Assembly: GCF_028435365.1 (NCBI RefSeq) | Contig: NZ_JAGTJJ010000127.1 | Span: 1 to 11,232 of the forward strand | DNA from: Polyangium jinanense | GTDB lineage: Bacteria; Myxococcota; Polyangia; Polyangiales; Polyangiaceae | Reading direction: 5' to 3' | DNA: 11,232 nt | In this document: positions 1 through 11,232 of the stretch, in pieces | Position numbering within the stretch: position 1 is the first letter of the stretch | How the letters are laid out: each line of letters begins with the position of its first letter | Position numbers and translations under genes: made by a program | Notes under the pieces: model-generated | What the model was told of the DNA's origin: nothing | Seen by the model: only the letters and a program-made list of their open reading frames with translations | Databases searched by the model: none

Positions 1-25
1 CATCAGCCGCGGGCTCGAACGACTG

Positions 26-53
26 GCACCCGCAGCAGAGATGCTACGGGTGC
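26..53. repeat. Imperfect palindrome (12-bp stem, 4-nt loop)
   Basis: Positions 26-37 pair with 42-53 around the loop GAGA, with one mismatch (C33/A46 on the plus strand, a G-U pair if transcribed leftward). No T-tract follows on either strand, so it does not look like an intrinsic terminator. It lies in gene-free DNA that also carries the hairpin repeats at 113-143 and 240-359, but its sequence differs from theirs. It could be part of a larger repeat unit or the 3' end of something beyond the left edge. Confidence 0.5.
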
Positions 54-112
54 TCAGGGAGAATGGGCTCGCGAGATGAGACCAATGCTCAGGCCAGGGG
101 CTGGACCCGGGG

Positions 113-143
113 TCGATGAACTGCGCGATGCGCAGTTCATCGA
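113..143. repeat. Hairpin repeat H1 (14-bp perfect stem, GAT loop)
   Basis: Positions 113-126 are a perfect reverse complement of 130-143, with the loop GAT at 127-129. The inner nine stem bases (GAACTGCGC) match those of the hairpins at 240-270 and 11200-11230, while the outer bases are TCGAT instead of TGGAA or GGGAA. The preceding 90-112 (CCAGGGGCTGGACCCGGGG region) looks like a decayed version of the sequence next to the right-hand hairpin, in the same orientation. H1 is therefore probably a degenerate or shortened copy of that element. Function is unknown; a REP-like dispersed repeat is the best guess. Confidence 0.7.
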
Positions 144-239
144 ACAGGCCGATTCAAGACCAGCGAAGGCCCTGCCAAACCAAGACGCCGCGCTGACGTG
201 TCGATTGGCAACGCTGTCTGTAGTCTTGCCACCGGCCCG

Positions 240-359
240 TGGAAGAACTGCGCGATGCGCAGTTCTTCCAACTCGAGTCCAGGGCTTGCCCTGGTTCGGG
301 TCGAGGGGCGAACAGCCCCCGCGGGGCCCGGGGCAGCGCCCCGGCGCGGCGGCCCCAAG
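240..359 (+). repeat. Dispersed hairpin-plus-GC-rich repeat element, left copy
   Basis: The element starts with a 14-bp hairpin (240-253 pairing with 257-270, loop GAT). A short variable stretch follows (271-276), then an 83-nt block (277-359) that is identical to the reverse complement of 11111-11193. The block contains further self-complementary parts: CCAGGGCTTGCCCTGG at 279-294 and CCGGGGC-AGC-GCCCCGG at about 328-344. It ends seven bases before the stop codon of the leftward gene at 367, so it lies in that gene's 3' region and may affect transcript ending or stability. It has no coding signal of its own; the reading frames crossing it are not gene-like. A REP/REPIN- or MITE-like element is likely, of no family I recognise. 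Confidence 0.85.
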
Positions 360-366
360 GGTGAAA

Positions 367-927
367 TCAGGGCAGAAGCCGCGAGAGGAAGCTCCACTTC
401 GTCGACTGCCCGGACTTCATTGCTAGAACCGCCGTGATGCCGATGACGCCCGCTGTGCACGCCAGGTTGATCGGACCCATCACGCTCAGAAAGCGCATGA
501 GGCCTCTCGCCTTCTCGGGCGTCCGGGCTGACGGCTCGTTGCCCGATTGCACGGGCACGGCGCCTTCTGGGGCCTGCTTGCCGAGCTCCTGACCGCTCAG
601 GATGTTCGCCGCGCCCGTGAGGACGGCGGCGCCGAGCAGGATGTCCTTCGCCAGGACGAGCCCGTGCGTCTCCTTGTCGATCGACCGCCCCGAGATCGCC
701 GCGCGACCGATGAACCACGTCAGCGCCGCGATGCCCAGGCTCGCCGCGGTCACCATGTTGTAGCTGTTCCATGCGTCGTGCAGGACCTGCCCTCGCTCCT
801 GCTCGGAGTCGATGTCCTGGACCGCGCGGTGCAGCGCGAGCTTGCCGAACAGCGGACCACCGAAGCCGGCCGCGAGGCCGAGATCATGCAGCACCCAGGC
901 GGACGTCGAGAGCACGGCCATGGTCAT
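367..927 (-). CDS. Hypothetical four-helix integral membrane protein
   Basis: A 186-residue protein of no family I recognise. Hydrophobic segments at about residues 5-30, 57-76, 88-111 and 146-170 suggest four membrane helices in the inner membrane. Between helices 3 and 4 is a polar stretch rich in Gln, Glu and Pro (about 112-142), and the C-terminus is short and basic. The ATG at 927 follows AGGAAGGGAGA, a reasonable ribosome-binding sequence. A second ATG two codons on (921) is also possible. The open frame continues upstream of this start only because GC-rich DNA has few stops, and the translation there is low-complexity Arg/Glu/Gly-rich and not protein-like. The gene is divergent from the 1075 gene across 147 bp. 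The hairpin repeat element ends seven bases past its stop. The gene is probably real; its function is unknown. Confidence 0.72.
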   Translation of the reverse strand: MTMAVLSTSAWVLHDLGLAAGFGGPLFGKLALHRAVQDIDSEQERGQVLHDAWNSYNMVTAASLGIAALTWFIGRAAISGRSIDKETHGLVLAKDILLGAAVLTGAANILSGQELGKQAPEGAVPVQSGNEPSARTPEKARGLMRFLSVMGPINLACTAGVIGITAVLAMKSGQSTKWSFLSRLLP

Positions 928-968
928 TCTCCCTTCCTGACGAATGCATCGGCCCCGGGGGGACCGTC

Positions 969-994
969 TTGCACACCGGCGCGACGGTTTGCAC
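969..994. promoter_or_regulatory. Direct TTGCAC repeats, 20 bp apart
   Basis: TTGCAC occurs at 969-974 and 989-994, with start points exactly 20 bp apart, in the divergent intergenic region. Two copies on one DNA face at about two helical turns could be an operator for a dimeric or cooperative regulator. In GC-rich DNA a chance repeat of six bases is quite possible, so this is weak. Confidence 0.2.
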
Positions 995-1037
995 GAGCGA
1001 TGCCGCCGGCTCGACGTGCCCGCCTGGGCGCTCATCG

Positions 1038-1067
1038 TTGAAATCCCTCGCCCGACGCCTGTACAAC
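1038..1067 (+). promoter_or_regulatory. Candidate sigma70-type promoter, possibly giving a leaderless mRNA
   Basis: TTGAAA (1038-1043) matches five of six bases of TTGACA, and TACAAC (1062-1067) matches four of six of TATAAT, with an 18-bp spacer. Transcription would begin about 1073-1076, at or next to the GTG start at 1075. There is no good ribosome-binding sequence before that GTG, which fits a leaderless transcript. The evidence is sequence resemblance only. Confidence 0.35.
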
Positions 1068-1074
1068 GGACCTC

Positions 1075-2028
1075 GTGAGCCGGATCGACCCCTCCCAGAA
1101 GACGCTCGTCGAGCAGCTCCGCGCCCTCGCCGGCGTCTCTGCCGACACGAACGAGTTCGTCATCGTCAAGCAAGAGGGCCGGACCATTCACGTCCGCTTC
1201 AGCCCGGGATCGACCGACTCGCTCGACGTCAAGACACCCATCTCGGAGCAGGGCTCCTCGCCGCGCTTCGTCCAGGCGGGGTACCGCAATGGCCGCCGCG
1301 AGGGGCCGCTCCTCGTCCCGCGGCCCATGAACCTCGTGCTCCGCAAGGAGACTGCGGCGAATCGCCAGGGCAAGGCCGACGGCGTCGATCGCGAAATTCA
1401 GACCGGTGATCCCGCGTTCGACGACGCGGTCTTCATTGATACATTGCTCAACGATGATCTCGTCCGCGCCGTCCTCGCCTCCCCCGACGCCCGCGCCGCG
1501 ATCCTCTCGCTCCTCGGCGACAATTGCGCGGTGATCCGCATCGACGACTCGACCGCGGGCAACATCTCGCTCGACCTCGTCGAGTTCACCCAGCCCGCGC
1601 CCGATCAGCAGCGCGGCGCGCGTATTGTCGACGCCCTCGCCCGCCTCGCCGCGTCCTTGCCTCCCATCCGGGCGAGCGGCGAGACGCCTCCGGTCGACAA
1701 CCAGTCCGCGGCGGCCACGGCTGGCTGCGTCTTCGCCTTCCTCGGCCTCATCGGCACCCCCATGGCCGTGTACGGCCTCGCGCCGAGCGGCTGCGTCGAA
1801 TCGGACGGCGAAGGATCGAGCCTCGTGTGCAGCGCGGGCCCGCAATGTTGCGAGCCCCTCTGGACGGGTTTTTTCGTGGGCCTCCTTCTGAGCCTGCCAG
1901 TTATCGCTTTCCTCCATCGAATCGTGCGCGGAAAACCGAACTCCTCGACGAGCCGGTTCGTCTTGCAATGCGCCACCCTCGTCGTGTTCGCGGAGCTCGG
2001 GCTCGTCGCCTCGCGCCTGTGGCGCTAG
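1075..2028 (+). CDS. Hypothetical membrane protein, soluble N-domain plus three C-terminal helices
   Basis: A 317-residue protein with a soluble N-terminal part of about 210 residues. Three hydrophobic segments follow, at about 215-236, 262-284 and 294-315. The loop between helices 1 and 2 holds four cysteines (C240, C252, C258, C259), which could form disulfides if it faces the periplasm. Residues 111-119 (GDPAFDDAV) begin a stretch that aligns by eye with GDKLWDQHV in the 9242 protein. I recognise no named family. The start is GTG at 1075. The only GGA lies too close to serve as a good ribosome-binding site, and a candidate promoter sits at 1038-1067, so the message may be leaderless. It is the first gene of the rightward cluster, and the next gene begins 34 bp after its stop. 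Function is unknown. Confidence 0.78.
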   Translation: MSRIDPSQKTLVEQLRALAGVSADTNEFVIVKQEGRTIHVRFSPGSTDSLDVKTPISEQGSSPRFVQAGYRNGRREGPLLVPRPMNLVLRKETAANRQGKADGVDREIQTGDPAFDDAVFIDTLLNDDLVRAVLASPDARAAILSLLGDNCAVIRIDDSTAGNISLDLVEFTQPAPDQQRGARIVDALARLAASLPPIRASGETPPVDNQSAAATAGCVFAFLGLIGTPMAVYGLAPSGCVESDGEGSSLVCSAGPQCCEPLWTGFFVGLLLSLPVIAFLHRIVRGKPNSSTSRFVLQCATLVVFAELGLVASRLWR

Positions 2029-2046
2029 GGTCGGCGACGCGCTACC

Positions 2047-2061
2047 CGGAGGAATCCTCCG
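2047..2061 (+). promoter_or_regulatory. Ribosome-binding site inside a small hairpin
   Basis: CGGAGG (2047-2052) pairs perfectly with CCTCCG (2056-2061) around the loop AAT, immediately before the ATG at 2063. The GGAGG is also the Shine-Dalgarno sequence of the CapA-like gene, at a spacing of about 10. The stem would hide it unless melted, by ribosomes finishing the upstream gene (stop at 2028) or by another factor. This could couple translation of the two genes. Structure is seen in sequence; effect is inferred. Confidence 0.45.
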
Positions 2062-2062
2062 C

Positions 2063-3295
2063 ATGGCTCCGCCCCGTATCACCGCTCCCCTCGCCCTCGC
2101 GCTCGTCGTGGCCGCGGCCGCGTGTGGGAATGATCGCGAAGGCACCCCGAACCTCGCGCCCGCCCCGATGCCCTCGGCGACCGCGCCCGCGCTCCCGGAT
2201 CCTCGAGCCGAGGACGCGGGCGACGCTGCGCCGGATGCGCCGAAAACCCCCGCATTCGTCACCGTTTTCGCCGCGGGGGACGTGAGCTTCGGGCGCCTCG
2301 TCGGCCAGATCCTCCTGCGCGAGCCGGATCGCGCCCTGTTTGCCCCGATGGAACACCTCCTCCGCGCGGCCGACGTCCGGTTCGTCAACCTGGAGGGGCC
2401 CATCAGCGATCAGGGAAACGAGACCGTCTCTCCCGAGAACAACCTCGTCTTCAATGGTCCCCCCGCCTCGGCCGACGTCCTCGCGCGCGCCGGGATTGAC
2501 GTCGTCTCCACGGCGAACAACCACGCCTGGGATTACGGCAAATCGGCCATGCTGGAGACCCTCGATCACCTCGACCGCGTCTCCGTCCTCCACGCGGGCA
2601 CGGGCGCGACCCTCGAAAAGGCCTTCGAGCCCGCGATCCTCACGCGCCGCGGGTTCCGGCTCGCTTTCCTCGCGGTCACCGACGTCTGGAACCAGGGCGT
2701 CCTCTCCAGACACCCAGGCCGCGCCCACGTCGCCGGAGCCGATCGCGAAGCCCTCGTGCGCGCCGTGCGGGCCCTCCGCGAACGGAGCGACATCGACGCG
2801 ATCCTCGTCAGTTATCACGGCGGCGAGGAATACCGCGAAGACCCACTTCCCGGCACACGCGCCCTCGCCGAGGCCGTGATCGACGCGGGCGCCGACGCTT
2901 TCCTCGGCCACCACCCGCACGTCGTGCAGGGCGTCTCGTTCCACGCCGGAAAGCCCATCGTCTACAGCCTCGGCAACCTGCTCATGCGCATGCACAGCGG
3001 CCACCCGTGGACCGAGATGGGCCTCGCCGTCAAACTCGAGCTCGAAAAAGGCGCCCCTCCCCGCCTCTTCGTGTGTCCGTTTCGCATTCACGGCATCGAG
3101 CCGATCCCCCTCGCCAAGGATCCTCGACGCAAGGCCTACGAATCTCACTTTTTCGGTCGATTCCAGGCCTTGTCGCGCCGCGTCGGAAGCGCGAGCCTCG
3201 GCCCCGCCGGTGAGGACGGATGCGCGCCCGTCGCACTGCCTTCCAGCACCGAAAAGCCGAGATCCGCGGATTCTCCTGCATCGAACTTTCCGTAG
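2063..3295 (+). CDS. CapA-family metallophosphatase-fold lipoprotein
   Basis: A 410-residue protein of the CapA/PGA_cap family (metallophosphatase superfamily). The N-terminus has a hydrophobic segment ending in AAAC (C21), a lipobox, with Gly at +2, so it is probably a lipoprotein. A Pro/Ala-rich linker of about 40 residues follows. The catalytic-fold motifs appear in the usual order: GDVSFGR (D73), NLEGPISD (N109, E111), TANNHAWDYG (N153, H154), SYHGG (H252), GHHPHVVQG (H283, H284, H286) and YSLGNLL (about 301-307). These are the expected metal-binding positions. CapA itself takes part in poly-gamma-glutamate capsule export, but no capB or capC gene is present here and many homologues lack that role, so the substrate is unknown. 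It sits between a membrane protein gene and an exported propeller-like protein gene, with 34-bp and 26-bp gaps. The ATG at 2063 follows GGAGG, which lies in a hairpin. Confidence 0.88.
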   Translation: MAPPRITAPLALALVVAAAACGNDREGTPNLAPAPMPSATAPALPDPRAEDAGDAAPDAPKTPAFVTVFAAGDVSFGRLVGQILLREPDRALFAPMEHLLRAADVRFVNLEGPISDQGNETVSPENNLVFNGPPASADVLARAGIDVVSTANNHAWDYGKSAMLETLDHLDRVSVLHAGTGATLEKAFEPAILTRRGFRLAFLAVTDVWNQGVLSRHPGRAHVAGADREALVRAVRALRERSDIDAILVSYHGGEEYREDPLPGTRALAEAVIDAGADAFLGHHPHVVQGVSFHAGKPIVYSLGNLLMRMHSGHPWTEMGLAVKLELEKGAPPRLFVCPFRIHGIEPIPLAKDPRRKAYESHFFGRFQALSRRVGSASLGPAGEDGCAPVALPSSTEKPRSADSPASNFP

Positions 3296-3321
3296 TGCCG
3301 GCCGGGCATTACCCTTCCTAC

Positions 3322-4443
3322 ATGTTCACGCGAAAGCTCCTCCTCGGCCTCGGCGCCTCGTGCGTCGCGGTCGCACTCGCATTCGCTGCCGTCGAACCTC
3401 AGGGCACAAAGGCCGCCCACGCCGCCGCGCCGCCCGAAGTCCGCGGACCTCGCGTGGCCGTCCTGGCCACGTTCCCGGGCGCCGAACACACCTCGCTTTA
3501 TCTCGTCCAGGCCGGCGGAGGCGCGGATCCCGCCCCCGTCGCCACGTTCGCGCACCTGCCCGACGCCGCCGTGCGCGCCGCCGTCGTCCCGGGCACGCCG
3601 TACGTGCTCGCGACGGCCGATACCACGCCCTCGCGCGACGCCTCCTTTCATGCCTCCCTCTTCCGCCTGCGACCCCACGCGCCGCCCGAGGCGCTCGTCG
3701 ATCGGGTCGTCCACGCGAGCCGCCCCCTCGTCACCTCCGCGGGCCGAATCTTCGTCTCCCGCGGCCGCGCCGGCACCGAAATCGAGGGCGGATTGCGCGT
3801 CGATCCGCTCACCGTCGACGAGGTCGACCTTTCCACCGGAAAAACCCGCGCCGTCCATGCCGAGCACGGACACCTCCTTTTCCTCGCGGGCGCGGCGGGC
3901 AAGGAGATCGTCCTTTATCGTGTCCTGCCCGATCACGCCGACGTCGTCGCCGTCGATCCCGATACGGGTGCCGTGCGTCCCATCGTGAAAAACCTACCGC
4001 CCTTCGCCCGCGATTTTTCCATCGACGCGAGCGGTAAAAAGCTCGTCTTCCAGGGCCGCCACGAAACCGACAGCCGCACCTGGGTCATCGACGAGATCGA
4101 TCTCGCCTCCGGCCATGCGCGCCGCCTCTTTTCGAGCCCGAGCATGACCCTCGCCCCGGCCGTCCTCCCGAGCGGCGGTGTCCTTTACAATCCCCCGGGC
4201 CGCGGACTCTCCACGCTCGACGCCGAGGCGCGCGTCGCCGGCCCCCTCGGCCCCGGCGTCGACCTCGTCGCGGCCACGACTGCCGATTCCCGCTGGATCG
4301 CCGCCTTGCACACGCAGCCGAGCTCGCTCGCCGTACCTTTCCTCGTCGATACAGAGGCCGGCGTCGCCTCCGTCCTCCCCGCGCCTCGCGGGAGCCGCGT
4401 GGCCATTGCCGGGTTTTACCCCGCGAACGGAGGTGCTCTTTGA
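3322..4443 (+). CDS. Exported beta-propeller-like (TolB/WD40-like) protein
   Basis: A 373-residue protein. From the ATG at 3322 it has a classical signal peptide: basic FTRK, a hydrophobic core at about residues 6-24, and possible cleavage near AHA at about 32-34. An in-frame ATG at 3220 would bury this signal and overlap the CapA-like gene, so 3322 is preferred although no clear ribosome-binding site precedes it. The mature part is mostly beta-strand-like with repeated units such as EVDLSTGKTRAV, AVDPDTGAVRPIV and EIDLASGHARRLF (D-x-x-[ST]-G turns roughly every 45 residues). These resemble TolB-type or WD40-like propeller blades. No catalytic residues are evident, so it is more likely a binding or scaffold protein. 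It starts 26 bp after the CapA-like gene. Its stop overlaps the next gene's start (TTGA, 4440-4443), and the next gene's strong ribosome-binding site lies within its last codons. Confidence 0.72.
   Translation: MFTRKLLLGLGASCVAVALAFAAVEPQGTKAAHAAAPPEVRGPRVAVLATFPGAEHTSLYLVQAGGGADPAPVATFAHLPDAAVRAAVVPGTPYVLATADTTPSRDASFHASLFRLRPHAPPEALVDRVVHASRPLVTSAGRIFVSRGRAGTEIEGGLRVDPLTVDEVDLSTGKTRAVHAEHGHLLFLAGAAGKEIVLYRVLPDHADVVAVDPDTGAVRPIVKNLPPFARDFSIDASGKKLVFQGRHETDSRTWVIDEIDLASGHARRLFSSPSMTLAPAVLPSGGVLYNPPGRGLSTLDAEARVAGPLGPGVDLVAATTADSRWIAALHTQPSSLAVPFLVDTEAGVASVLPAPRGSRVAIAGFYPANGGAL
4429..4442 (+). promoter_or_regulatory. Strong ribosome-binding site deciding a TTG start
   Basis: GGAGGT at 4429-4434 lies five bases before TTG at 4440, inside the end of the upstream gene. 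The TTG overlaps that gene's TGA stop (TTGA at 4440-4443), a typical coupled arrangement. From this TTG the protein begins with a proper signal peptide, which supports the choice. Confidence 0.7.
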
Positions 4444-5633
4444 GCCCCAAGCACCCCCTCGCCGCCGCCGCCTCGCTCGCCCTCCTCGCCGCGAGCGGCG
4501 GCGCCGCCGCTTATTGCCCTTCGTATACCGCGTCGAGCCCCGCGAACGATCACGGCTGCGCCATCGAGGCCGTGGCCGGGACGAACCCGACGAACGACGA
4601 ATGGAACGTCATCTTCGACCTCGTCTCCCAGGGCCCCGCGGCCTGGGGTGACCAGGGCCCCTCCGTCACCGACATCGGCCAGGGCTGCGGCAAACCCGAG
4701 CCGTACCAATCCGTCTCTGCGCGTTTCCCTTGCGAATTGCTCAAGGCCCTCACGAAGGTCGAGTCCGGCTGGCGCCAGTTCTGCGTCCCCACCCTGCCCG
4801 CGGATCAGGTCGGCGGCGAATCGCGGACCATCATCTCCTTCGATTGCGGTTATGGAATCGGGCAGGTCACGAGCGGCATGCACGTCGGGGAAAACCCGGA
4901 CTTCGACCGTGAGCGTGTCGCCTCGGATCCGTTCTACAACCTCGCCACGAGCACCCGCATCCTCGCGGCGAAATGGAAGGCGACGAACTGCGTCGGCGAC
5001 AACCAGCCCAAGATCGTCGAACACTGGTACACGGCCACGTGGGCCTACAATGGTTTGGCGTACGTGAACAATCCGAACAACCCGAACTACGACCCGAACC
5101 GCGGTGTCTGGAAGCCGTCCGTGGGCGGCGCCGCGCCGTACCAGGAGAAGGTCTACGGGTTCATGGAATTCAATAGCCAGTGGGAGACGATCGAGCCGGC
5201 CTATCCGAACCCCGGCGACATCGGCGGAGGCACGAGCCCGCCCGATCTGCCCGAGCCCGATTGCGCTTCCCCCACGGATTGCGAGAACAAACGCCCGACC
5301 CACGTCACGGCGTGCGCGGGAGCCGTCGGCGGAAGTGGCGGCGCAGGCGGAGGCGGAAGCGGCGGCGCGGGCGGCGGCGGTGGAAGCGGAGGCGCAGGCG
5401 GAAGCGGCGGCGCAGGCGGAAACGGCGGCACAGGCGGCAGCGGAAACGACGGCGGAAGCGGCCCCGGCGGCGGCCCCGGCACCACGGACGACGGCAATGG
5501 CACCGTCCACGGCGTCGTCACGTGTCAGTGCCGCGCCGCGGGCACGAATGATCGGATTCCCGGGTGGCTCGGCCTCGGCTCACTCGCCGTCCTGGCGAGC
5601 CTCGGCGCGCGCCGCCGCCGTCCGCGCCTCTAG
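4440..5633 (+). CDS. Lysozyme-fold (SLT-like) secreted protein with Gly/Ser linker and MYXO-CTERM tail
   Basis: A 397-residue protein. It has a signal peptide (residues 1-24, cleavage likely after GAAA). A lysozyme-like domain spans about 90-250: LLKALTKVESGW with candidate catalytic Glu108, CGYGIGQVT (136-144), NLATSTRILAAKW (167-179) and WYTATWAYNG (196-205). These match the order of motifs in soluble lytic transglycosylases (SLT/GH23-type), which cleave peptidoglycan glycan strands. Many cysteines (26, 40, 83, 98, 115, 136, 184) suggest disulfides and an extracytoplasmic location. A Gly/Ser/Ala linker fills 297-347. The tail has TCQC (361-364), a hydrophobic helix (about 375-390) and RRRRPRL, which fits the MYXO-CTERM signal thought to be processed by myxosortase for surface display. 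The start is TTG at 4440 with GGAGGT five bases upstream. It is the last gene of the cluster, and the convergent gene's stop is 2 bp away. Activity is inferred from motifs. Confidence 0.85.
   Translation: MSPKHPLAAAASLALLAASGGAAAYCPSYTASSPANDHGCAIEAVAGTNPTNDEWNVIFDLVSQGPAAWGDQGPSVTDIGQGCGKPEPYQSVSARFPCELLKALTKVESGWRQFCVPTLPADQVGGESRTIISFDCGYGIGQVTSGMHVGENPDFDRERVASDPFYNLATSTRILAAKWKATNCVGDNQPKIVEHWYTATWAYNGLAYVNNPNNPNYDPNRGVWKPSVGGAAPYQEKVYGFMEFNSQWETIEPAYPNPGDIGGGTSPPDLPEPDCASPTDCENKRPTHVTACAGAVGGSGGAGGGGSGGAGGGGGSGGAGGSGGAGGNGGTGGSGNDGGSGPGGGPGTTDDGNGTVHGVVTCQCRAAGTNDRIPGWLGLGSLAVLASLGARRRRPRL
5328..5480 (+). repeat. In-frame Gly/Ser/Ala-coding low-complexity repeat
   Basis: Short imperfect units of the type GGC-GGA-AGC / GGC-GCA-GGC repeat through this stretch and encode a GGSGGAGG-type linker (residues 297-347 of the lysozyme-fold protein). 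The codons vary (GGC, GGA, GGT) but the amino-acid pattern holds. The linker probably spaces the enzyme from the cell surface. Such DNA is prone to slippage, so linker length may vary among strains. Confidence 0.85.
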
Positions 5634-5635
5634 CC

Positions 5636-6835
5636 TCATTCGCAGGCGAGCGACTTCATATCCGCCACGCGTTTCGGGAACTCGGTTTCCAGGATGAAAT
5701 TCGAGATCCGCGTCTCCGGGCCGTTGCGGCTCCTGCCCACGTGCAGGAAGTTCGTCCCCGTATCGCCCGCGTGGCAACCATTGCACGTCGCGATCGAGAA
5801 CGCCTTGCGGAGGTTTTCGGCCGCGCCGGGGACCTCCCAGGTGAAAGTGTTCGTCGGCACGCGCGACGATCCGCCGTTGAACGGCTCGCCCTTGAACCGG
5901 GAGCCTACCTTGTGCGTTCCGTCCAGGATCTTGCGCTCGTTCTGACGAACGAAATCGGCGAGCAGCGTCGTATTGTTGTGGACCAGGTCCGGCGTCAGAC
6001 CCACGCTCGCCGGCAGCAGTTTCCCTTTGGAGTTGATCTGGAATTGCCGCAGCTCCCACAGGGGCGTCGCGTCGCCGAAGGTCAGGGCAATCTCGTTCGT
6101 GCGCAGTTGATTGAGCACGCTCCCCGGCTGCATCCCTTGCCACGACTTCGCGCTCACGAATTTCTCCGTCAGCACCTCGAGCTTCGTGTTGTACTCCGGC
6201 CCGAACGGCAGCGCGCCGAGCGCGTGGAATTCGCGTGCCCAGCTCTCCGGCGTCTGTCCCCGGTTCGACGGCAGCCTGTATTCGAAGATCATGGTGAACG
6301 GCAGGGCGCGCCCGTCGGGCCCGTGCACGTTGTACACCATGCGCCCCTCGCCCACGCCCTCGCCGACGTTCAACTTCTTGCGTAAATCGAGCCGGTACAC
6401 GATGGCGAGCAGGGACATCGGCGCCTTGGCGAGATCGTACGTCTTGCCGTCCGCGCTCTTCGCCCGCCAGGGCCCGAGCACGAGCTCTTCCATCCGGGCG
6501 CGCGCCTTGATCGTCAGCCCGTCGACGACCTGGTCCGTGAGCCACGTTTCCATGAATCCCTTGATGAACTCCTGCTGGTCGTGGCCTTTCGCCATTTCCT
6601 GGACGACATAGCCGAACGACCATTTCCCGAGTCCGGTCGCCCGCGCGTCCTGGATTACCGACAGATCCGTGATGAAAAGCTCCTTCGCGGCATCGACGAC
6701 GCAATCGGTGAGCGCCTCCTCGTTTTCCCCGATGGGCTCCGCCTCTCCTGGGTCGGAGACCGGCACTTCACCGCAGCCCACCCCAAGCACGAGCGTCAGC
6801 GCAACCGTGAACAAACCATGCATGTTACGTTTCAT
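5636..6835 (-). CDS. Secreted lipoprotein with a single CXXCH (haem c-type) motif
   Basis: A 399-residue protein. From the ATG at 6835 it begins KRNMHGLFTVALTLVLGVGC, a lipoprotein signal with C21 (weak lipobox GVGC, Gly at +2). A Glu-rich spacer ending NEEAL follows, a pattern I associate with myxobacterial exported proteins. The body is of no named family I can give. Near the C-terminus is CNGCH (351-355) followed by AGDTGTNFLHVG, a form seen in myxobacterial exported proteins of unknown function. CXXCH normally binds one covalent haem c, so an electron-transfer or peroxidase-like role is possible. A lone motif could also be structural, and no second haem site or obvious distal ligand is seen. 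The open frame extends 39 codons upstream, but only the ATG at 6835 gives a signal peptide; a purine-rich GAGGGGCGGGGGC precedes it. It is convergent with the lysozyme-fold gene, and 211 bp separate it from the upstream gene. Confidence 0.8.
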   Translation of the reverse strand: MKRNMHGLFTVALTLVLGVGCGEVPVSDPGEAEPIGENEEALTDCVVDAAKELFITDLSVIQDARATGLGKWSFGYVVQEMAKGHDQQEFIKGFMETWLTDQVVDGLTIKARARMEELVLGPWRAKSADGKTYDLAKAPMSLLAIVYRLDLRKKLNVGEGVGEGRMVYNVHGPDGRALPFTMIFEYRLPSNRGQTPESWAREFHALGALPFGPEYNTKLEVLTEKFVSAKSWQGMQPGSVLNQLRTNEIALTFGDATPLWELRQFQINSKGKLLPASVGLTPDLVHNNTTLLADFVRQNERKILDGTHKVGSRFKGEPFNGGSSRVPTNTFTWEVPGAAENLRKAFSIATCNGCHAGDTGTNFLHVGRSRNGPETRISNFILETEFPKRVADMKSLACE

Positions 6836-7046
6836 GACTGCCCCCGCCCCTCGCGGAGTAACGCCCGGCCGTCTCGCAGGACAGAATGTCCCGGACGCGC
6901 CCCCGCGGGGTTCTATGGCCATCCGGCGCGCTCGGGCCTCCGAGCTTCGCACCGAAAACCTGCTCCCTACGGAACAGCCACCAATATCATGCGCTCATGG
7001 TGAGTCGAGAAGCCCCCCTCCCGCACCCCGTGCCCGGAGGGCATTT
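6836..7046. other. Intergenic region, 211 bp, no gene seen
   Basis: This lies between two leftward genes and should contain the promoter of the CXXCH lipoprotein gene. I see no convincing -35/-10 pair, operator or leftward terminator. The only structured element is a short terminator-like stem at 7031-7048 facing rightward. Confidence 0.5.
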
Positions 7047-7048
7047 TT
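7031..7048 (+). terminator. Terminator-like stem with T-tract facing rightward
   Basis: TGCCC-GGA-GGGCA (7031-7043) is followed by TTTTT (7044-7048) on the plus strand. The stem is only 5 bp and no rightward gene precedes it. The T-tract overlaps the TAA stop of the leftward PAS-STAS gene. It could stop antisense transcription, or be chance. It cannot serve the leftward gene, whose RNA would carry A's before the stem. Confidence 0.25.
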
Positions 7049-8180
7049 ACGTCCGCTCGCACCGCGCCGCCTCGATTCCGTCGCGCAAGCTCCGGAGCAA
7101 GAGAATCCCCTCGAGATCCACGTTCGCGTGGACCAACGTCCGCGCAAGCTTCGACGTGATGCCCGTGGCGATGGGGCGCGCCCCGAGCAGGCGAATCGCA
7201 CGTCCGAGGCGCGCCACCTGCTCGGCCGTCTCCGCCGTGAGCGCGTCCGCTCCGGTCAAATCCAGGATTACGGTCTCCGCGCCCCGCGCGGAGACGGCGT
7301 TCAGGATTCGACCTTCCATCTCCAGTGCGCGCGCGGAATCGAGCACCCCGATGATCGGCAGCGCGATCGTGCGCGACGAGACCTCGAGCACGGGCGCCGA
7401 GAGGGCCAGGATCTCCTGCTTCTGCCGCTCCACGATGGCGAGCGTCCCCCGAAGCTGCTCCGCGAGCTGCCCTTCCTCGGCCGCGCGCCGCTCCGCCCCG
7501 CGCCGCGCCGTCTCGTCGGTGTGGTGCACGAGGATCACCGTCTTGCCCGTCGCCGGATCCGGCAGCGTGCGCGCCTCGACCGCGTGCCAGCGCTCGCCCA
7601 CGGCCGTGTGCACGGCCGTCTCCAGCGAAAACACCTCGCCCGCCCGCGTCGCCGACAGCAGCGCCTCCGGAATCACATCGTCCGGAAAACGCGCGCGGAA
7701 TGGCGCGGCGGTCCCGAATGCGCTTTGCGCCGCCGGGTTTTGCAGGACAATCTCCCCTTCCATGTCGAGCAGCGTCACCATCACCGACGTGTGCCGCAGC
7801 GCCTCGATGCTTCGCACGAGATCCGGGCTCGGCGCCTTCTCCTTCACGACCGCCTGGATGAGCACACCCGTCCGGCCATCGTCGAGCGGCACGCCCGTCA
7901 TGAAGAGCTTCATCGTGACGGGCTCGCCCTTTGGATACAGCGTCCATTCCTCCTCGGCCGTCCGGCCCACGCGGAAACCGTCGATGTACCCGCGCATCCG
8001 CGTCCGCGTCGACTCCGACATATCGGAGTAATCACGCGCGTAGAGCTCTTCCGGGGTGCTCGCGCGCCAGAGCTCGAGGGCGGGCTTGTTCGCCCAGCGC
8101 TGGCGGAAGAAGTCGAGGTCGAACACCCAGGTCGGGACAGGGGAGGATTCCAGGGCGGCGAGCCGTTCGTGAAGCTTCAT
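7047..8180 (-). CDS. PAS-PAS-STAS regulator, RsbR-like (stressosome-type co-antagonist)
   Basis: A 377-residue cytoplasmic protein. Two PAS-like regions occupy about residues 8-115 (PVPTWVFDLDFFRQRWANKPAL) and 122-225 (TSVMVTLLDMEGEIVLQNPAA). A helical, probably coiled-coil linker follows at about 226-258. A C-terminal STAS domain (about 260-377) matches the RsbR family pattern: LPIIGVLDSARA, VILDLTGADAL, LLGARPIATGI, and LVHANVDLEGILLLRSL. T309 (DLTG) and T339 (ATGI) lie where RsbRA has its two phosphorylated threonines, so kinase control by an RsbT-like partner is plausible. Family knowledge: RsbR proteins assemble with RsbS into stressosomes and release RsbT on stress. No rsbS, rsbT or rsbU homologue is nearby. 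The ATG at 8180 has a weak ribosome-binding site. A membrane protein gene ends 69 bp upstream and might be co-transcribed. The ligand sensed by the PAS domains is unknown. Confidence 0.88.
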   Translation of the reverse strand: MKLHERLAALESSPVPTWVFDLDFFRQRWANKPALELWRASTPEELYARDYSDMSESTRTRMRGYIDGFRVGRTAEEEWTLYPKGEPVTMKLFMTGVPLDDGRTGVLIQAVVKEKAPSPDLVRSIEALRHTSVMVTLLDMEGEIVLQNPAAQSAFGTAAPFRARFPDDVIPEALLSATRAGEVFSLETAVHTAVGERWHAVEARTLPDPATGKTVILVHHTDETARRGAERRAAEEGQLAEQLRGTLAIVERQKQEILALSAPVLEVSSRTIALPIIGVLDSARALEMEGRILNAVSARGAETVILDLTGADALTAETAEQVARLGRAIRLLGARPIATGITSKLARTLVHANVDLEGILLLRSLRDGIEAARCERT

Positions 8181-8249
8181 GGGTCGGGCGTCGACGGGCG
8201 ACGCAGCACGTCGCAGGGGACCTCGTTTAGGACGGAACCAACGCGGTGT

Positions 8250-9155
8250 CTACCACGCCCGAGGCCCCTCCCCCAGGCCCGACTCGTGCTGTTCCACGGG
8301 CAAACCCGCAATCTCGCGCAGCGCGAGCGGAAAGAAGCTCTCGTTATCCATCGCCCCCGGTGCGCTCCCCGGGTAGCGGCGCTCGATCGAGCGCTTTCCA
8401 CGCATCGGATCGATCCGGCGGATCACGACCGTCCCGCCTTTCACGTGGATCTCATCCACCTCGATCGCGCTCCATCGCTCCACGCGCTCGCCATCGAAAA
8501 GCTCAATGAATTCGCGCCCAATCCGCGCCCGCCGTGAAAGATCCCGCGCGTCCCGCCCGATCTCGAGGGCGCCGTGGGATTCCACGTCCTCGCGCGCCTT
8601 CCGGAGCAGCCACTCGTTCCAGGCGCGCTCGGCCGCCACGGCGAACAGATATTCCTGATGCTCCGGCCGCGCCCCGGCCGTGGGCCTCTCGCCCTCGTAA
8701 ACACCGTGGATCCGGAACGCCACGAAGGCGCCCCGGCGCCCCATCCAGCGCAGATCGAATTCAACGCGGTTCGAATCGCCTTTTTGGCGGGTGCGCACAA
8801 CCTTTACCAGCGCGCGTGCGTCCTCGAAACGGAGCACCACGCGCGGCAGCGGATCGCCCCACGTGTGGCGCGCGAGCCCGTCCTTGCCCACATACGTGCA
8901 CGACGCGACCGGGCCATTCACCTCCCACGCGATCGGCGCCGCGAACCACGCCCCCACCGCGGCCGCGACGACCGTCAGCGCCGCGGCGATCGCCTCCGTG
9001 AGCGGCGCGCCGACGCCGAGCTGCCGGAGCAGCCACACGAGCATCCCGATGGGCACGAGCGAGACCACGCCCACCGCGACCGCGCTGAACGCCACGAGCA
9101 CGGACGTCCGCAGGGCCCGCAGAGAAAGCGTCACCGGCTTCTCCCCGGCCTGCAT
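8250..9155 (-). CDS. Hypothetical membrane protein with two N-terminal helices and a large soluble C-domain
   Basis: A 301-residue protein from the chosen ATG at 9155. Two hydrophobic segments (about residues 15-45 and 52-77) look like a helical hairpin in the inner membrane, leaving a charged soluble domain of about 220 residues. That domain has a beta-rich part (RVEFDLRWMGRRGAFVAFRI), a long amphipathic helix (AERAWNEWLLRKAREDVE) and a beta-rich end (WSAIEVDEIHVKGGTVVIRR). No named family is recognised, and a sensor or adaptor role is only a guess. The start is uncertain. ATG at 9155 is preferred because GGAAG lies four bases upstream, and the codons before it are less G/C-biased at third positions. 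ATGs at 9215 and 9272 would extend the N-terminus, the latter overlapping the divergent gene at 9242. It lies 69 bp upstream of the PAS-STAS gene on the same strand, so the two may form an operon. Confidence 0.72.
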   Translation of the reverse strand: MQAGEKPVTLSLRALRTSVLVAFSAVAVGVVSLVPIGMLVWLLRQLGVGAPLTEAIAAALTVVAAAVGAWFAAPIAWEVNGPVASCTYVGKDGLARHTWGDPLPRVVLRFEDARALVKVVRTRQKGDSNRVEFDLRWMGRRGAFVAFRIHGVYEGERPTAGARPEHQEYLFAVAAERAWNEWLLRKAREDVESHGALEIGRDARDLSRRARIGREFIELFDGERVERWSAIEVDEIHVKGGTVVIRRIDPMRGKRSIERRYPGSAPGAMDNESFFPLALREIAGLPVEQHESGLGEGPRAW

Positions 9156-9241
9156 GGTGCTTCCGACCGAACGAACGTCCCCGATCTCCGGCGGAGGCAG
9201 GGCGAACACCCGCATCCCGTCGGCCAGGCGATCCCCCGCGT

Positions 9242-9961
9242 GTGACGTCGCCCGTGGCGCGATCCGTGTCATGCCGTCCCGCGTCGAGGATATCCTCTCC
9301 GGCCGCGGCCCGCGAGCCCAACGTTTTCGGCCTTTACGTCGCCGAGCCTCCCGGATTACGCTCTCTCCGCGTGTCGGGCCACCTGAGATCCTTGGGCGCG
9401 GATCGCATCGGCGCATGGGCGTATGCGAATGGCTTCGCGTGGAACCCGTTCCCCGGGGAGAGCTGGTTCCGCCCGTGGGAGCCGCACGACAACATCGCCC
9501 CTCCGGGCCACTTTCTCCACTCGGTCACGCGACAGACACCTCACGGCCCGTACGTGCTCGTCGAACCCTGGTACGCGCCGGACCTCGAGACCGAGCCGCT
9601 CGAACGAACCATCTTCGCCTACGCCGCGCACCCGAACCTCGTGCGCCGCGCGGCCATGCGGGTCGGCGAGCACTTCGTGACGCGCGTCGCTTACCTCGAA
9701 AGCGCGCCGCCGCCGAAGGTCCAGATCGGCGACAAACTCTGGGATCAGCACGTCACGACGTTCGCCGCCTCGCCTGTCGAGGCCGCCGCCGCGTTCCCCC
9801 CGCGCCTGCGCTCGATGCTCGCGAGCTGGGGTTTTCAGGGGCACCTCGAGATGCGCCCTGGCGGCCTCGTGATCTTCATGGCGGGCCTGCGCCCCGTGGC
9901 CGAGCATTACCAGCGCTTGCTCGGCGTGGCGCGCGAGGTGCTGCACGCGACCCTGGGCTAA
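9242..9961 (+). CDS. Hypothetical soluble protein with a GDxx[FW]D motif
   Basis: Up to 239 residues, with no signal peptide or membrane helix, probably cytoplasmic. It is rich in aromatic residues in the first half (GAWAYANGFAWNPFPGESW, about 57-75 from the GTG at 9242). The second half (about 163-239) begins GDKLWDQHV and continues with R-LRSMLASWGFQG and an amphipathic C-terminal helix. This half resembles residues 111-190 of the 1075 membrane protein in motif order and spacing. No named family is recognised. The start is uncertain: GTG at 9242, 9254, 9266 or 9371 are all in frame and none has a good ribosome-binding site. The protein-like sequence clearly begins by about 9317 (NVFGLYVAEP). 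Its stop overlaps by 4 bp that of the convergent beta-barrel gene. The upstream gene is divergent, and its start may lie close or even overlap. Confidence 0.7.
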   Translation: MTSPVARSVSCRPASRISSPAAAREPNVFGLYVAEPPGLRSLRVSGHLRSLGADRIGAWAYANGFAWNPFPGESWFRPWEPHDNIAPPGHFLHSVTRQTPHGPYVLVEPWYAPDLETEPLERTIFAYAAHPNLVRRAAMRVGEHFVTRVAYLESAPPPKVQIGDKLWDQHVTTFAASPVEAAAAFPPRLRSMLASWGFQGHLEMRPGGLVIFMAGLRPVAEHYQRLLGVAREVLHATLG

Positions 9962-10941
9962 AAGACGAACGGCACGTCGACCTGCACGATCTTGTACTCG
10001 AGGCCGCCGCCCGAGAATCCCGTCGGCAGATCGAGCCCCATCGTCAAGGAGACCGCGGGGCGTAGCCACATCTTGTCGCTCAGCTTGAAGTGCCCGCGGG
10101 GCCCGAAGCCGAGCGTCCAGTTGTCGATCCGCGTGGGATCGGTGCCCTTCTCGATGGTCCCGTTCGAGACCCAGAGCTGGTAGCGGAGCTCGGTGCCGAT
10201 CGAGAGCTGCGGAATCACGAACCACCCGAAATGCAGGCCCGCGGTGAGGTTCGTCCGGGCCGCATCCTTGTCGAGCGTGGCGCCGCGCACGCGGAGGAGC
10301 TGCAAGAGCGTCACCTCGGCCTGGAGCGTGATCCCGTTCGCGATGTACCCGATGCCCGCACCGACGATCGGGGTCATGTAGTTGATCTGGAAGAGCGCGT
10401 TGTCCATCGAGGCGCGCGCATAGATGCCGTCGAGGTTCGCCGTGCGGGTCGCCATGTCGGGCGTGTCGCCGCCGCCCGTGCCCACGGGGATCGTGGTGGC
10501 GGCGAACAGGCCCACCTTCCACGACTCGCCGAGCGGAATCGAGTAGAGCGCGCCGATCGCGGGGTTGATGAACGACGTGGCCTTCGTGCCCTCGGGCCCC
10601 GACGTCTCGCTGTGGATCATGCCGAGCCGCACGATGGCGGCGAGGTTCGGCAGGATCTTGTAGCTCCCGAGCAGAAGCACCGGGACCGTGGTCTTCGTCT
10701 TCGAGAACGCGAACGTCGTGTCGAGACGAACCACGTTCCCCGCGGTCACCGGCCGGAGCATGAAGGGCAACGAGTACGGCGCCGGGGTCTTTTTCGCCGC
10801 GGGCTCCGGCGCGGCAGGCGGGGTCTCCGCCGGGGGGTTTTGTTGCGCGCGCGCTGGAAGGGCGGACGAGAGGCCGCCGAACGCGAGCCCTACCGCAACC
10901 AAACGTGACAGCCCACGACGAACCCCAATTCCGTTTTTCAC
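9958..10941 (-). CDS. Outer-membrane beta-barrel-like protein
   Basis: A 327-residue protein. The GTG at 10941 opens a signal peptide: KNGIGVRRGLSR, a hydrophobic core at residues 14-28, and cleavage likely after ARA at 30-32. A Pro/Ala-rich segment follows (about 33-55). The rest alternates hydrophobic and polar residues in short strands separated by turns (NVVRLDTTFAFSKTKTTVPVLLLGSYKIL, GLHFGWFVIPQLSIGTELRYQLWV shortened here: GLHFGWFVIP). It ends in a terminal phenylalanine (VDVPFVF), the usual BAM-recognition signature of outer-membrane barrels. The cargo or ligand is unknown; a transporter or porin-like channel is possible but unproven. The open frame continues to the window edge through the repeat element, but that part is not protein-like. 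AGGAG lies about 11 bases before the GTG, and a weak promoter candidate is at 10970-10998. It is convergent with the 9242 gene, with a 4-bp overlap. Confidence 0.82.
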   Translation of the reverse strand: MKNGIGVRRGLSRLVAVGLAFGGLSSALPARAQQNPPAETPPAAPEPAAKKTPAPYSLPFMLRPVTAGNVVRLDTTFAFSKTKTTVPVLLLGSYKILPNLAAIVRLGMIHSETSGPEGTKATSFINPAIGALYSIPLGESWKVGLFAATTIPVGTGGGDTPDMATRTANLDGIYARASMDNALFQINYMTPIVGAGIGYIANGITLQAEVTLLQLLRVRGATLDKDAARTNLTAGLHFGWFVIPQLSIGTELRYQLWVSNGTIEKGTDPTRIDNWTLGFGPRGHFKLSDKMWLRPAVSLTMGLDLPTGFSGGGLEYKIVQVDVPFVF

Positions 10942-10969
10942 GACCCTACTCTCTCCTCTCCGATCCCAA

Positions 10970-10998
10970 CGTATCCGAGAGCAAGCGCAAGGTGCGAA
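10970..10998 (-). promoter_or_regulatory. Weak sigma70-like promoter candidate for the beta-barrel gene
   Basis: Read leftward, TTCGCA (10998-10993) and GATACG (10975-10970) are separated by 17 bp. They match the -35 and -10 consensus at four and three of six bases. Transcription would start near 10963, leaving about 21 bases before the GTG at 10941, with a purine-rich AGGAG inside. The spacing is good but the boxes are poor. Confidence 0.22.
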
Positions 10999-11110
10999 AA
11001 ATCCGAGCCGTGTTCGTGCGCGGCTTGGCGTGCCAGACCACGGCGGCTCGACCCGACCCCGACGCGCGCGACCGCTGCGCGGGCAAACCATAACGTTCGA
11101 TACTCCTCTT

Positions 11111-11230
11111 CTTGGGGCCGCCGCGCCGGGGCGCTGCCCCGGGCCCCGCGGGGGCTGTTCGCCCCTCGACCCGAACCAGGGCAAGCCCTGGACCTCAGGG
11201 GGAAGAACTGCGCGATGCGCAGTTCTTCCC
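11111..11230 (-). repeat. Dispersed hairpin-plus-GC-rich repeat element, right copy
   Basis: This is the inverted copy of the element at 240-359. Positions 11111-11193 are identical over 83 nt to the reverse complement of 277-359. A short variable stretch follows, then a 14-bp hairpin at 11200-11230 (11200-11213 pairing with 11217-11230, loop GAT). The base of this stem is G-C where the left copy has T-A, so pairing is kept despite the change. The hairpin loop reads GAT on the plus strand in both copies although the rest of the element is reversed. The element lies about 170 bp upstream of the beta-barrel gene start, and the window ends two bases after the hairpin. Confidence 0.85.
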
Positions 11231-11232
11231 AC

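Follow-up and report, generated by a model that had tools for sequence, protein, structure and literature searches.

Repetitive extragenic palindromes (REPs) are described as high-copy extragenic palindromes that often form inverted pairs, lie near gene 3' ends and are frequent between convergent genes; published REPs are either tied to RAYT (REP-associated tyrosine transposase) proteins or have no known mover, and a term search of the same text returned no mention of Myxococcus or Sorangium (PMC3733652). Insertion sequences use REP-type palindromes as targets (PMC1525189), and the pneumococcal SPRITE, BOX and RUP families are small repeats that have been suggested to be terminators or RNA elements and that insert into each other (PMC10969869). 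Here we describe a repeat element of the genus Polyangium, found as two inverted copies at the ends of an 11,232-nucleotide stretch of Polyangium jinanense DNA (contig NZ_JAGTJJ010000127.1, positions 1 to 11,232), hereafter called the window. It is a REP-like element with Tn5-type ends. No account of this repeat family was found in a literature search by title and beginning of the abstract, a search in which subscription journals were mostly outside the coverage.

On balance, we regard the repeat as a non-autonomous, Tn5-ended mobile element of Polyangium whose core is probably a two-way 3'-end structure. That it is a mobile element is highly probable, and a Tn5-type origin is likely. A role of the core as a terminator or in 3'-end protection, judged from sequence, is proposed more tentatively.

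The element resembles REPs, bacterial interspersed mosaic elements (BIMEs) and REP doublets forming hairpins (REPINs) in its many extragenic copies, its closeness to gene 3' ends and its paired palindromes. It differs from them in that a unit has four hairpins over ~110 nt instead of one palindrome of 20-40 bp, has no GTAG and practically no CGTC tag, is not consistently accompanied by a Y1 transposase and shares its ends with an IS4/Tn5-type sequence. Like miniature inverted-repeat transposable elements (MITEs) of the IS4/Tn5 type, it is short; some of its copies end in the terminal repeats of a resident insertion sequence, and one is flanked by a 9-bp duplication with 8 matching bases. Unlike these, most copies lack terminal repeats, and the interior is an A-B array of covarying hairpins; this comparison is with the general type of such MITEs. 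SPRITE, BOX and RUP are similar by description (small size and mutual insertion) and belong to another phylum.

Architecture, window copies and range of the element

A full element is ~330 bp long and consists of two unlike units, A and B, usually arranged head to head. Each unit (~110 nt) has a head hairpin and three tail hairpins in the order GGTCTTG..GGCC, head (14-bp stem, 3-nt loop), box 1 (CCAGGGCTTGCCCTGG and variants), box 2 (GGGGC-GGACA-GCCCC), box 3 (CCGGGGCAGCGCCCCGG) and a ragged end. By an A/B rule, 95 A-B pairs were gathered. The 30 commonest combinations of neighbouring heads, which are independent of this rule, likewise place A beside B, and none of them is A-A or B-B, save pairs with other head types (GCATCGA, GCGAGGA).

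In the window, positions 277-359 equal the reverse complement of 11111-11193 in 83/83 nt, with identity stopping at both block edges, and a head hairpin with a 14-bp stem, identical in both copies, adjoins each block. The exact inverted copies are 10.75 kb apart. The complete inverted repeat (241-359 / 11111-11229; 119 nt, 93%) is the longest of 16 inverted pairs in the window, and model R1 recognises full units at 240-350 (+, E 9e-22) and 11120-11230 (-, E 1e-21). These blocks would be the A-unit halves of two copies of one non-autonomous Polyangium element. A third head, at 113-143, belongs to the B half of the left element; the B unit of the right copy is expected past the window end. Read in the tail direction, copy 1 has the head loop GAT and copy 2 ATC, so that one of the two heads is flipped with respect to its tail. 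The parts are as follows, with the basis of each assignment in brackets.

1-92, + strand: right end of an IS4/Tn5-type insertion sequence (assigned from DNA matches to full copies and to contig ends, the transposase families of the L179 protein and the flank table)
2-79, + strand: 3' end of the transposase gene, last 26 codons including the stop codon TGA at 77-79 (matches to full insertion-sequence copies)
74-92, + strand: terminal inverted repeat of the insertion sequence, AGATGAGACCAATGCTCAG (flank table)
93-112, - strand: B-unit tail remnant (box 1), split by the insertion sequence (same right junction in locus L179; the model match at 75-143 skips boxes 2 and 3)
93-101, - strand: presumed 9-bp target duplication GCCAGGGGC, the partner of which would fall outside the window
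113-143, - strand: B-unit head hairpin, 14-bp stem TCGATGAACTGCGC (inverted-repeat search, model R1)
144-239, no strand: centre of the left element, between two heads (comparison with collected A-B pairs)
240-270, + strand: left-copy A-unit head hairpin, 14-bp stem, loop GAT (model R1)
277-359, + strand: left-copy A-unit tail, with box 1 at 279-294, box 2 at 305-319, box 3 at 328-344 and the outer end
367-927, - strand: gene adjoining the left A tail (stop codon 367-369)
11111-11193, - strand: right-copy A-unit tail, exact reverse complement of 277-359 (model R1)
11200-11230, - strand: right-copy A-unit head hairpin (inverted-repeat search, model R1)

A preliminary description, made from the window alone, had reported the exact 83-nt identity in inverted orientation and the 14-bp hairpins, both of which were recovered by the inverted-repeat search and by model R1, and had proposed a dispersed non-autonomous REP- or MITE-like family. 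The family is indeed dispersed, with 15 to 345 exact heads per carrier genome instead of a two-copy locus. Recent spread or gene conversion between the two window copies, which had also been suggested, need not be assumed: the 73-nt core of the block recurs six times each in genomes G001 and G003 (and is absent from the other four of six carrier genomes), and the whole 83-mer occurs in the window alone among collected loci. What the two window copies share is a subfamily sequence found repeatedly elsewhere, and their exact identity is not special. An inversion of the enclosed genes, another earlier suggestion, was not seen, since window positions 367-11046 form one collinear alignment in the related locus L163; the alignments of L164 and L165 that cover the window interior keep gene order and orientation, and that of L162 reaches window position 5419 only. 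The idea that the block might be part of a coding gene also falls, as it lies outside all ten window gene calls and is therefore non-coding. Rfam gave no match at E up to 1 over the entire window. A phage or plasmid origin was rejected: positions 240-359 had no match in phage or plasmid collections, and the exact head is absent from a viral-contig collection.

The genome counts and collected loci come from Polyangium genomes other than the window's own, and most loci were fetched via an exact head; heads vary, and thus exact-head counts miss copies. A scan with the 21-nt head GAACTGCGCGATGCGCAGTTC over 84,980 species, one genome per species, gave at least 120 matches. Among the 120 listed, 118 are in Polyangium and two in metagenome-assembled genomes outside it (L092 and L093); the latter were rejected as chance palindromes without tails. 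Exact heads are found in six of the 108 genomes of the taxonomic family of P. fumosum (G002), namely G001 (345), G004 (243), G002 (148), G003 (132), G089 (55) and G090 (15), and the head pattern read backwards is found in none of the 108. A survey of 13 genomes with model R1 scored at least 150 candidates in each of five carriers, 86 in the sixth and none in the seven others. Outside these two genome sets, the range given here is that of the species-wide scan with its 120 listed matches. Two contiguous stretches, picked for synteny around the window's relatives, hold six element loci in 200 kb of G003 and nine in 190 kb of G004 (30 and 47 per Mb). Extrapolation from these two small stretches gives roughly 400 to 600 loci per genome.

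The hairpins are well conserved as pairs. In 32 diverse units, 96.3% of cells are paired (87.1% in shuffles), pair changes on both sides number 16 (10.3) and the covariation score is 0.257 (0.094), each value being reached by 0/500 shuffles, a significance that the shuffles overstate because the sequences are related. When partners are slid by one column, pairing falls to 45-48%. Stems are perfect in 366/385 heads, 380/386 box 1, 380/386 box 2 and 369/383 box 3 copies, among units found by the tail profile, a sample that leans to intact tails. Box variants and head variants are loosely linked (normalised mutual information 0.25-0.63), which makes the units look like mosaics.

Further observations concern single parts of the unit. 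In the collected loci both orientations of the 3-nt head loop with respect to the tail are found (ATC 182 and GAT 12; TTC 13 and GAA 10), which suggests that the palindromic head sometimes flips. Unlike head stems (GAAACCGCGC, GACAGCGCGC and GCATCGACCGC) precede the same tail type at L200:14820-15270, L203:2150-2420 and L213:9890-10390, so that heads seem to be exchanged. Elements of G004 (L012, L024, L029 and L040) have an extra module in the A half, a hairpin GCATCGACTGCGC..GCGCAGTCGATGC followed by GGGG and an A/T-rich run with several T in the direction of the neighbouring gene. By eye, the T-run comes several bases after the hairpin, and the module looks more terminator-like than the other stems.

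Terminal repeats shared with an IS4/Tn5-type insertion sequence

The insertion sequence whose right end occupies window positions 1-92 is ~1504 bp long, as seen in a full copy in L179. The transposase of this copy matches NF033590 with 254.9 bits (cut-off 160), and PF14706 and PF02281 above cut-off; by these profile matches, the insertion sequence is assigned to the IS4 family, Tn5 subgroup. The preliminary description had stated that no transposase is in the window. This does not quite hold, as the 3' end of a transposase gene, with the terminal repeat, lies at the left edge of the window. IS50/Tn5 makes 9-bp duplications and has ends starting with CTGA. The Polyangium insertion sequence shares these features and the Tn5 DNA-binding and dimerisation domains, and differs in how strongly it prefers box 1 of the element (11/14 flanks). 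There are four complete copies in G089 and one in G004, contig-end pieces in G002 and G004, fragments in G001 and G090, and none in G003 or G088. Distant complete relatives (43-44%) are found in G086 and G087, both without elements.

Of the five full copies, three have exact 9-bp duplications, all in box 1 (GGCACGGCC in L185, AACCAGGGC in L189 and GGCCGTGCC in L190). The copy in L193, inside a gene, has a duplication matching in 8/9 positions, and that in L179 has none, its flanks being different parts of elements. L179 has the same right junction as the window, where a duplication is presumed at 93-101. Judged by eye, the 14 distinct right-end flanks, window included, lie in box 1 (11), box 2 (1) or elsewhere (2); ten of them were fetched by a query ending in ten box 1 bases, and eight of these are in box 1. 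The window is among the box 1 flanks, indicating that the insertion sequence has split the B tail of the left copy.

The same 19-nt terminal repeat, tip outward, is found on repeat-element tails: 47/398 score at least 15/19, with three positions scored loosely, and seven are exact without this leniency. In 46/47 the repeat lies 12-16 nt past box 3. Scored equally, the reversed and reverse-complemented motifs reach at most 14, and 100 shuffled motifs give a mean of 0.33 tails (maximum 4). Other hit tables and length filters give 34/320 and 44/389 tails. Among 142 head-to-head pairs, at a laxer threshold, the repeat is present at both ends in seven, at one end in 30 and at neither in 105. One of the seven (L192) is flanked outside its two ends by ATCAGCCGC and CTCAGCCGC, which match in 8/9 bases, a probable if imperfect target-site duplication of the kind that the preliminary description had proposed looking for. 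In L150, L183 and L109, the repeat-bearing ends lie inside box 1 of what appears to be another element. The shared ends and the same box 1 preference suggest that one transposase family moved both the element and the insertion sequence. A recurrent neighbour gene that could be the autonomous partner was also considered, and no transposase was seen by eye among the 14 largest protein clusters of the loci; the candidate partner emerged instead from the partial gene at window positions 2-79.

Position relative to genes and turnover between species

Genes around the elements were called by a purpose-written codon-usage gene finder. The 129 unique loci with enough flank comprise 72 convergent, 42 tandem and 11 divergent sites, two inside a gene (one being the chance hit L093) and two at an edge; the last four were excluded, leaving 125. 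Convergent context is found for 72/125 elements and for 89/644 element-free gene pairs of the same loci (Fisher p 1e-23); counted by tails, 77/121 pairs are convergent. The contiguous 390 kb hold 15 loci, 13 with usable flanks, of which eight are convergent, against a background of 147/940 (Fisher p 3e-4). In paired elements, the end of the tail profile (approximately the end of box 3) lies a median of 20 nt from the stop codon (quartiles 14-29; 189 sides) and 114 nt from a gene start (53 sides). In orientation and distance, the elements are therefore mainly behind genes, often between convergent pairs. The gap between convergent genes with an element has a median of 352 nt and is nearly filled by the element, so that transcripts from either side must end inside it or read through. 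Solo units face a gene 3' end in 26/34 cases (p 8e-4 against an expectation of 0.47), 13 of which are in convergent sites, where either direction fits. A role specific to one half was dropped, as A or B faces the upstream gene of tandem sites without bias (17 vs 14). PMC3733652 gives a closely similar placement for REPs, less than 20 bp from the 3' ends of genes in convergent pairs, and placement behind genes is not new in itself.

Four relatives of the window (L162-L165) share 87-94% identity over 2.2 kb. At the left site, L162 and L164 carry the element and L163 and L165 do not. The latter two have in its place a short spacer with a terminator-like hairpin, whose flanking A- and T-runs are, by eye, clear in L165 and weaker in L163. 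A second site lies at window position 9958, where the stop codons of convergent genes overlap. L164 has an element there, and P. fumosum a different palindromic insertion (L165:11594-11723) with the ends TTAACAGCCTGTGGA and TCCACAGGCTGTTAA. A third site has a terminator-like hairpin in G003 and an element in G004, with the right flank alone orthologous, so that replacement is unsure there. Two empty sites have stops with a spacer of 3 nt or none, and both gene ends are still in place in the occupied counterparts.

The syntenic part of G003 and G004 contains 11 comparable sites, three occupied in G003 only, six in G004 only and two in both; two of the nine single-occupancy sites have one orthologous flank only, and two further loci near the stretch ends were left uncompared. 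At one shared site the elements have opposite orientation by tail type, and at the other a single unit stands against a full pair. Six other orthologous sets, which arose where head-bearing loci overlapped, show opposite orientation (S1, S3 and S6), the same orientation (S4), a mixture with a solo unit (S2) or one empty species (S5). Independent insertion at favoured sites is the simplest account of the orientation differences; inversion in place is also possible.

Three other genes of the window can be described. The gene at 2063-3295 encodes a protein with a PGA_cap domain (PF09587); this protein also matches the lasso-peptide tryptophan epimerase MslH, at a score far below cut-off. That at 7047-8180 encodes a PAS-domain protein, for which a STAS match falls just short of cut-off and one to the YtvA photoreceptor family is likewise below it. 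The gene at 4440-5633 has no Pfam match; its product has a Gly/Ser-rich repeat (5314-5487), a hydrophobic C-terminal stretch and an Arg cluster. We take this C-terminus to resemble a myxobacterial C-terminal sorting tail.

Origin and possible role

The element would owe its mobility, at any rate in the beginning, to a transposase of the IS4/Tn5 type, presumably acting in trans. This enzyme would recognise 19-bp ends (CTGAGCAYTGGTCTCATCT) and leave 9-bp target duplications. The insertion sequence favours GC-rich palindromes, chiefly box 1 of the element. Most copies lack terminal repeats and keep an intact hairpin core, and the repeats may have been lost after insertion. Copies persist mainly behind genes, where the core may block RNA polymerase or protect the RNA end. 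Near-perfect stems together with mostly absent terminal repeats fit selection for a 3'-end structure.

Other explanations account for parts of these data. A locus-specific inverted duplication or an assembly artefact would explain an exact inverted pair 10.75 kb apart, and is refuted by the many copies in independent assemblies and by the left site being occupied in two relatives and empty in two; we give it practically no credence. A REP/REPIN family moved by a RAYT (Y1) transposase, the partner envisaged in the preliminary description, would agree with the high copy number, the paired hairpins, the position behind genes, in which REPs are reported too (PMC3733652), and the Y1 matches in G001, G002 and G090. 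However, PF01797 (Y1) is not matched in three of the six carriers, G003, G004 and G089, with their 132, 243 and 55 exact heads, whereas G087 and G088 have nine and three Y1 matches and no elements. Of 172 head feet, none has GTAG, and CGTC is found within 8 nt on the 5' side of one and on the 3' side of none. Instead, the duplication and the terminal repeat in common with the insertion sequence indicate an IS4/Tn5 type. The distribution of Y1 does not follow the element and the tags are practically absent, and a RAYT partner was rejected as very improbable.

The core itself, from box 3 to box 3 without terminal repeats, might be mobile and be placed behind stops by an unknown mechanism, the repeats stemming from nearby insertion-sequence activity. 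The 351/398 tails without a recognisable terminal repeat agree with this, as do the two nearly spacerless sites where the occupied version keeps the gene ends. Stray insertions, however, would not be expected to leave an outward repeat at a constant 12-16 nt from box 3 (46/47), and partial repeats, as at compared sites 4, 5 and 7, fit trimming; we consider a mobile core unlikely. The serious competitor is a neutral or selfish MITE that does nothing for its host, found behind genes only since other insertions are harmful and since GC-rich palindromes, native terminators among them, attract the transposase. The preference of the insertion sequence for box 1 palindromes favours it, and so does the high turnover implied by 9/11 comparable sites being occupied in one of two species. 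It leaves less well explained that the stems are nearly always intact, in a sample leaning to intact tails, and that the terminal repeats are mostly gone. We hold it to be quite possible, if short of an even chance.

Several observations weigh against a Tn5-ended element with a selected 3'-end structure. Biased sampling or mutational upkeep of palindromes could yield the same picture of stems and repeats, and further pair types number 26, close to 24.9 in shuffles (165/500 as high). No T-run is seen by eye after the window tail hairpins, which are thus not textbook intrinsic terminators. Wobble pairs (11 G-T vs 4 A-C, p 0.12) have no significant strand bias, and selection on the RNA strand, as argued from wobble asymmetry, was dropped. 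Solo units in tandem sites face the gene end in 13/19 cases (p 0.17), without significant preference. Most loci used for position were picked by exact head; in the contiguous 390 kb, eight of the 13 scored loci are convergent. As to the Tn5-type origin, G003 is rich in elements and yet has no copy of the insertion sequence, and both-end repeats occur in 7/142 pairs, with a duplication in just one of the seven.

A bolder version, in which a Tn5-type MITE was adopted as a portable two-way terminator that inserted at gene 3' ends, displaced the native terminator between convergent genes, shed its ends and was kept for its hairpins, appears to us rather doubtful. If it is true, hundreds of terminators per genome would be interchangeable mobile cassettes with high turnover from species to species. 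For genome work, the contigs of G002 and G004 that end inside the insertion sequence indicate that such repeats break Polyangium draft assemblies. The family presents a REP-like hairpin array behind genes; a minority of its copies have the ends of a Tn5-type insertion sequence, which also targets one hairpin of the array. Where such repeats come from and what they do for the host thereby become directly testable in culturable soil bacteria.

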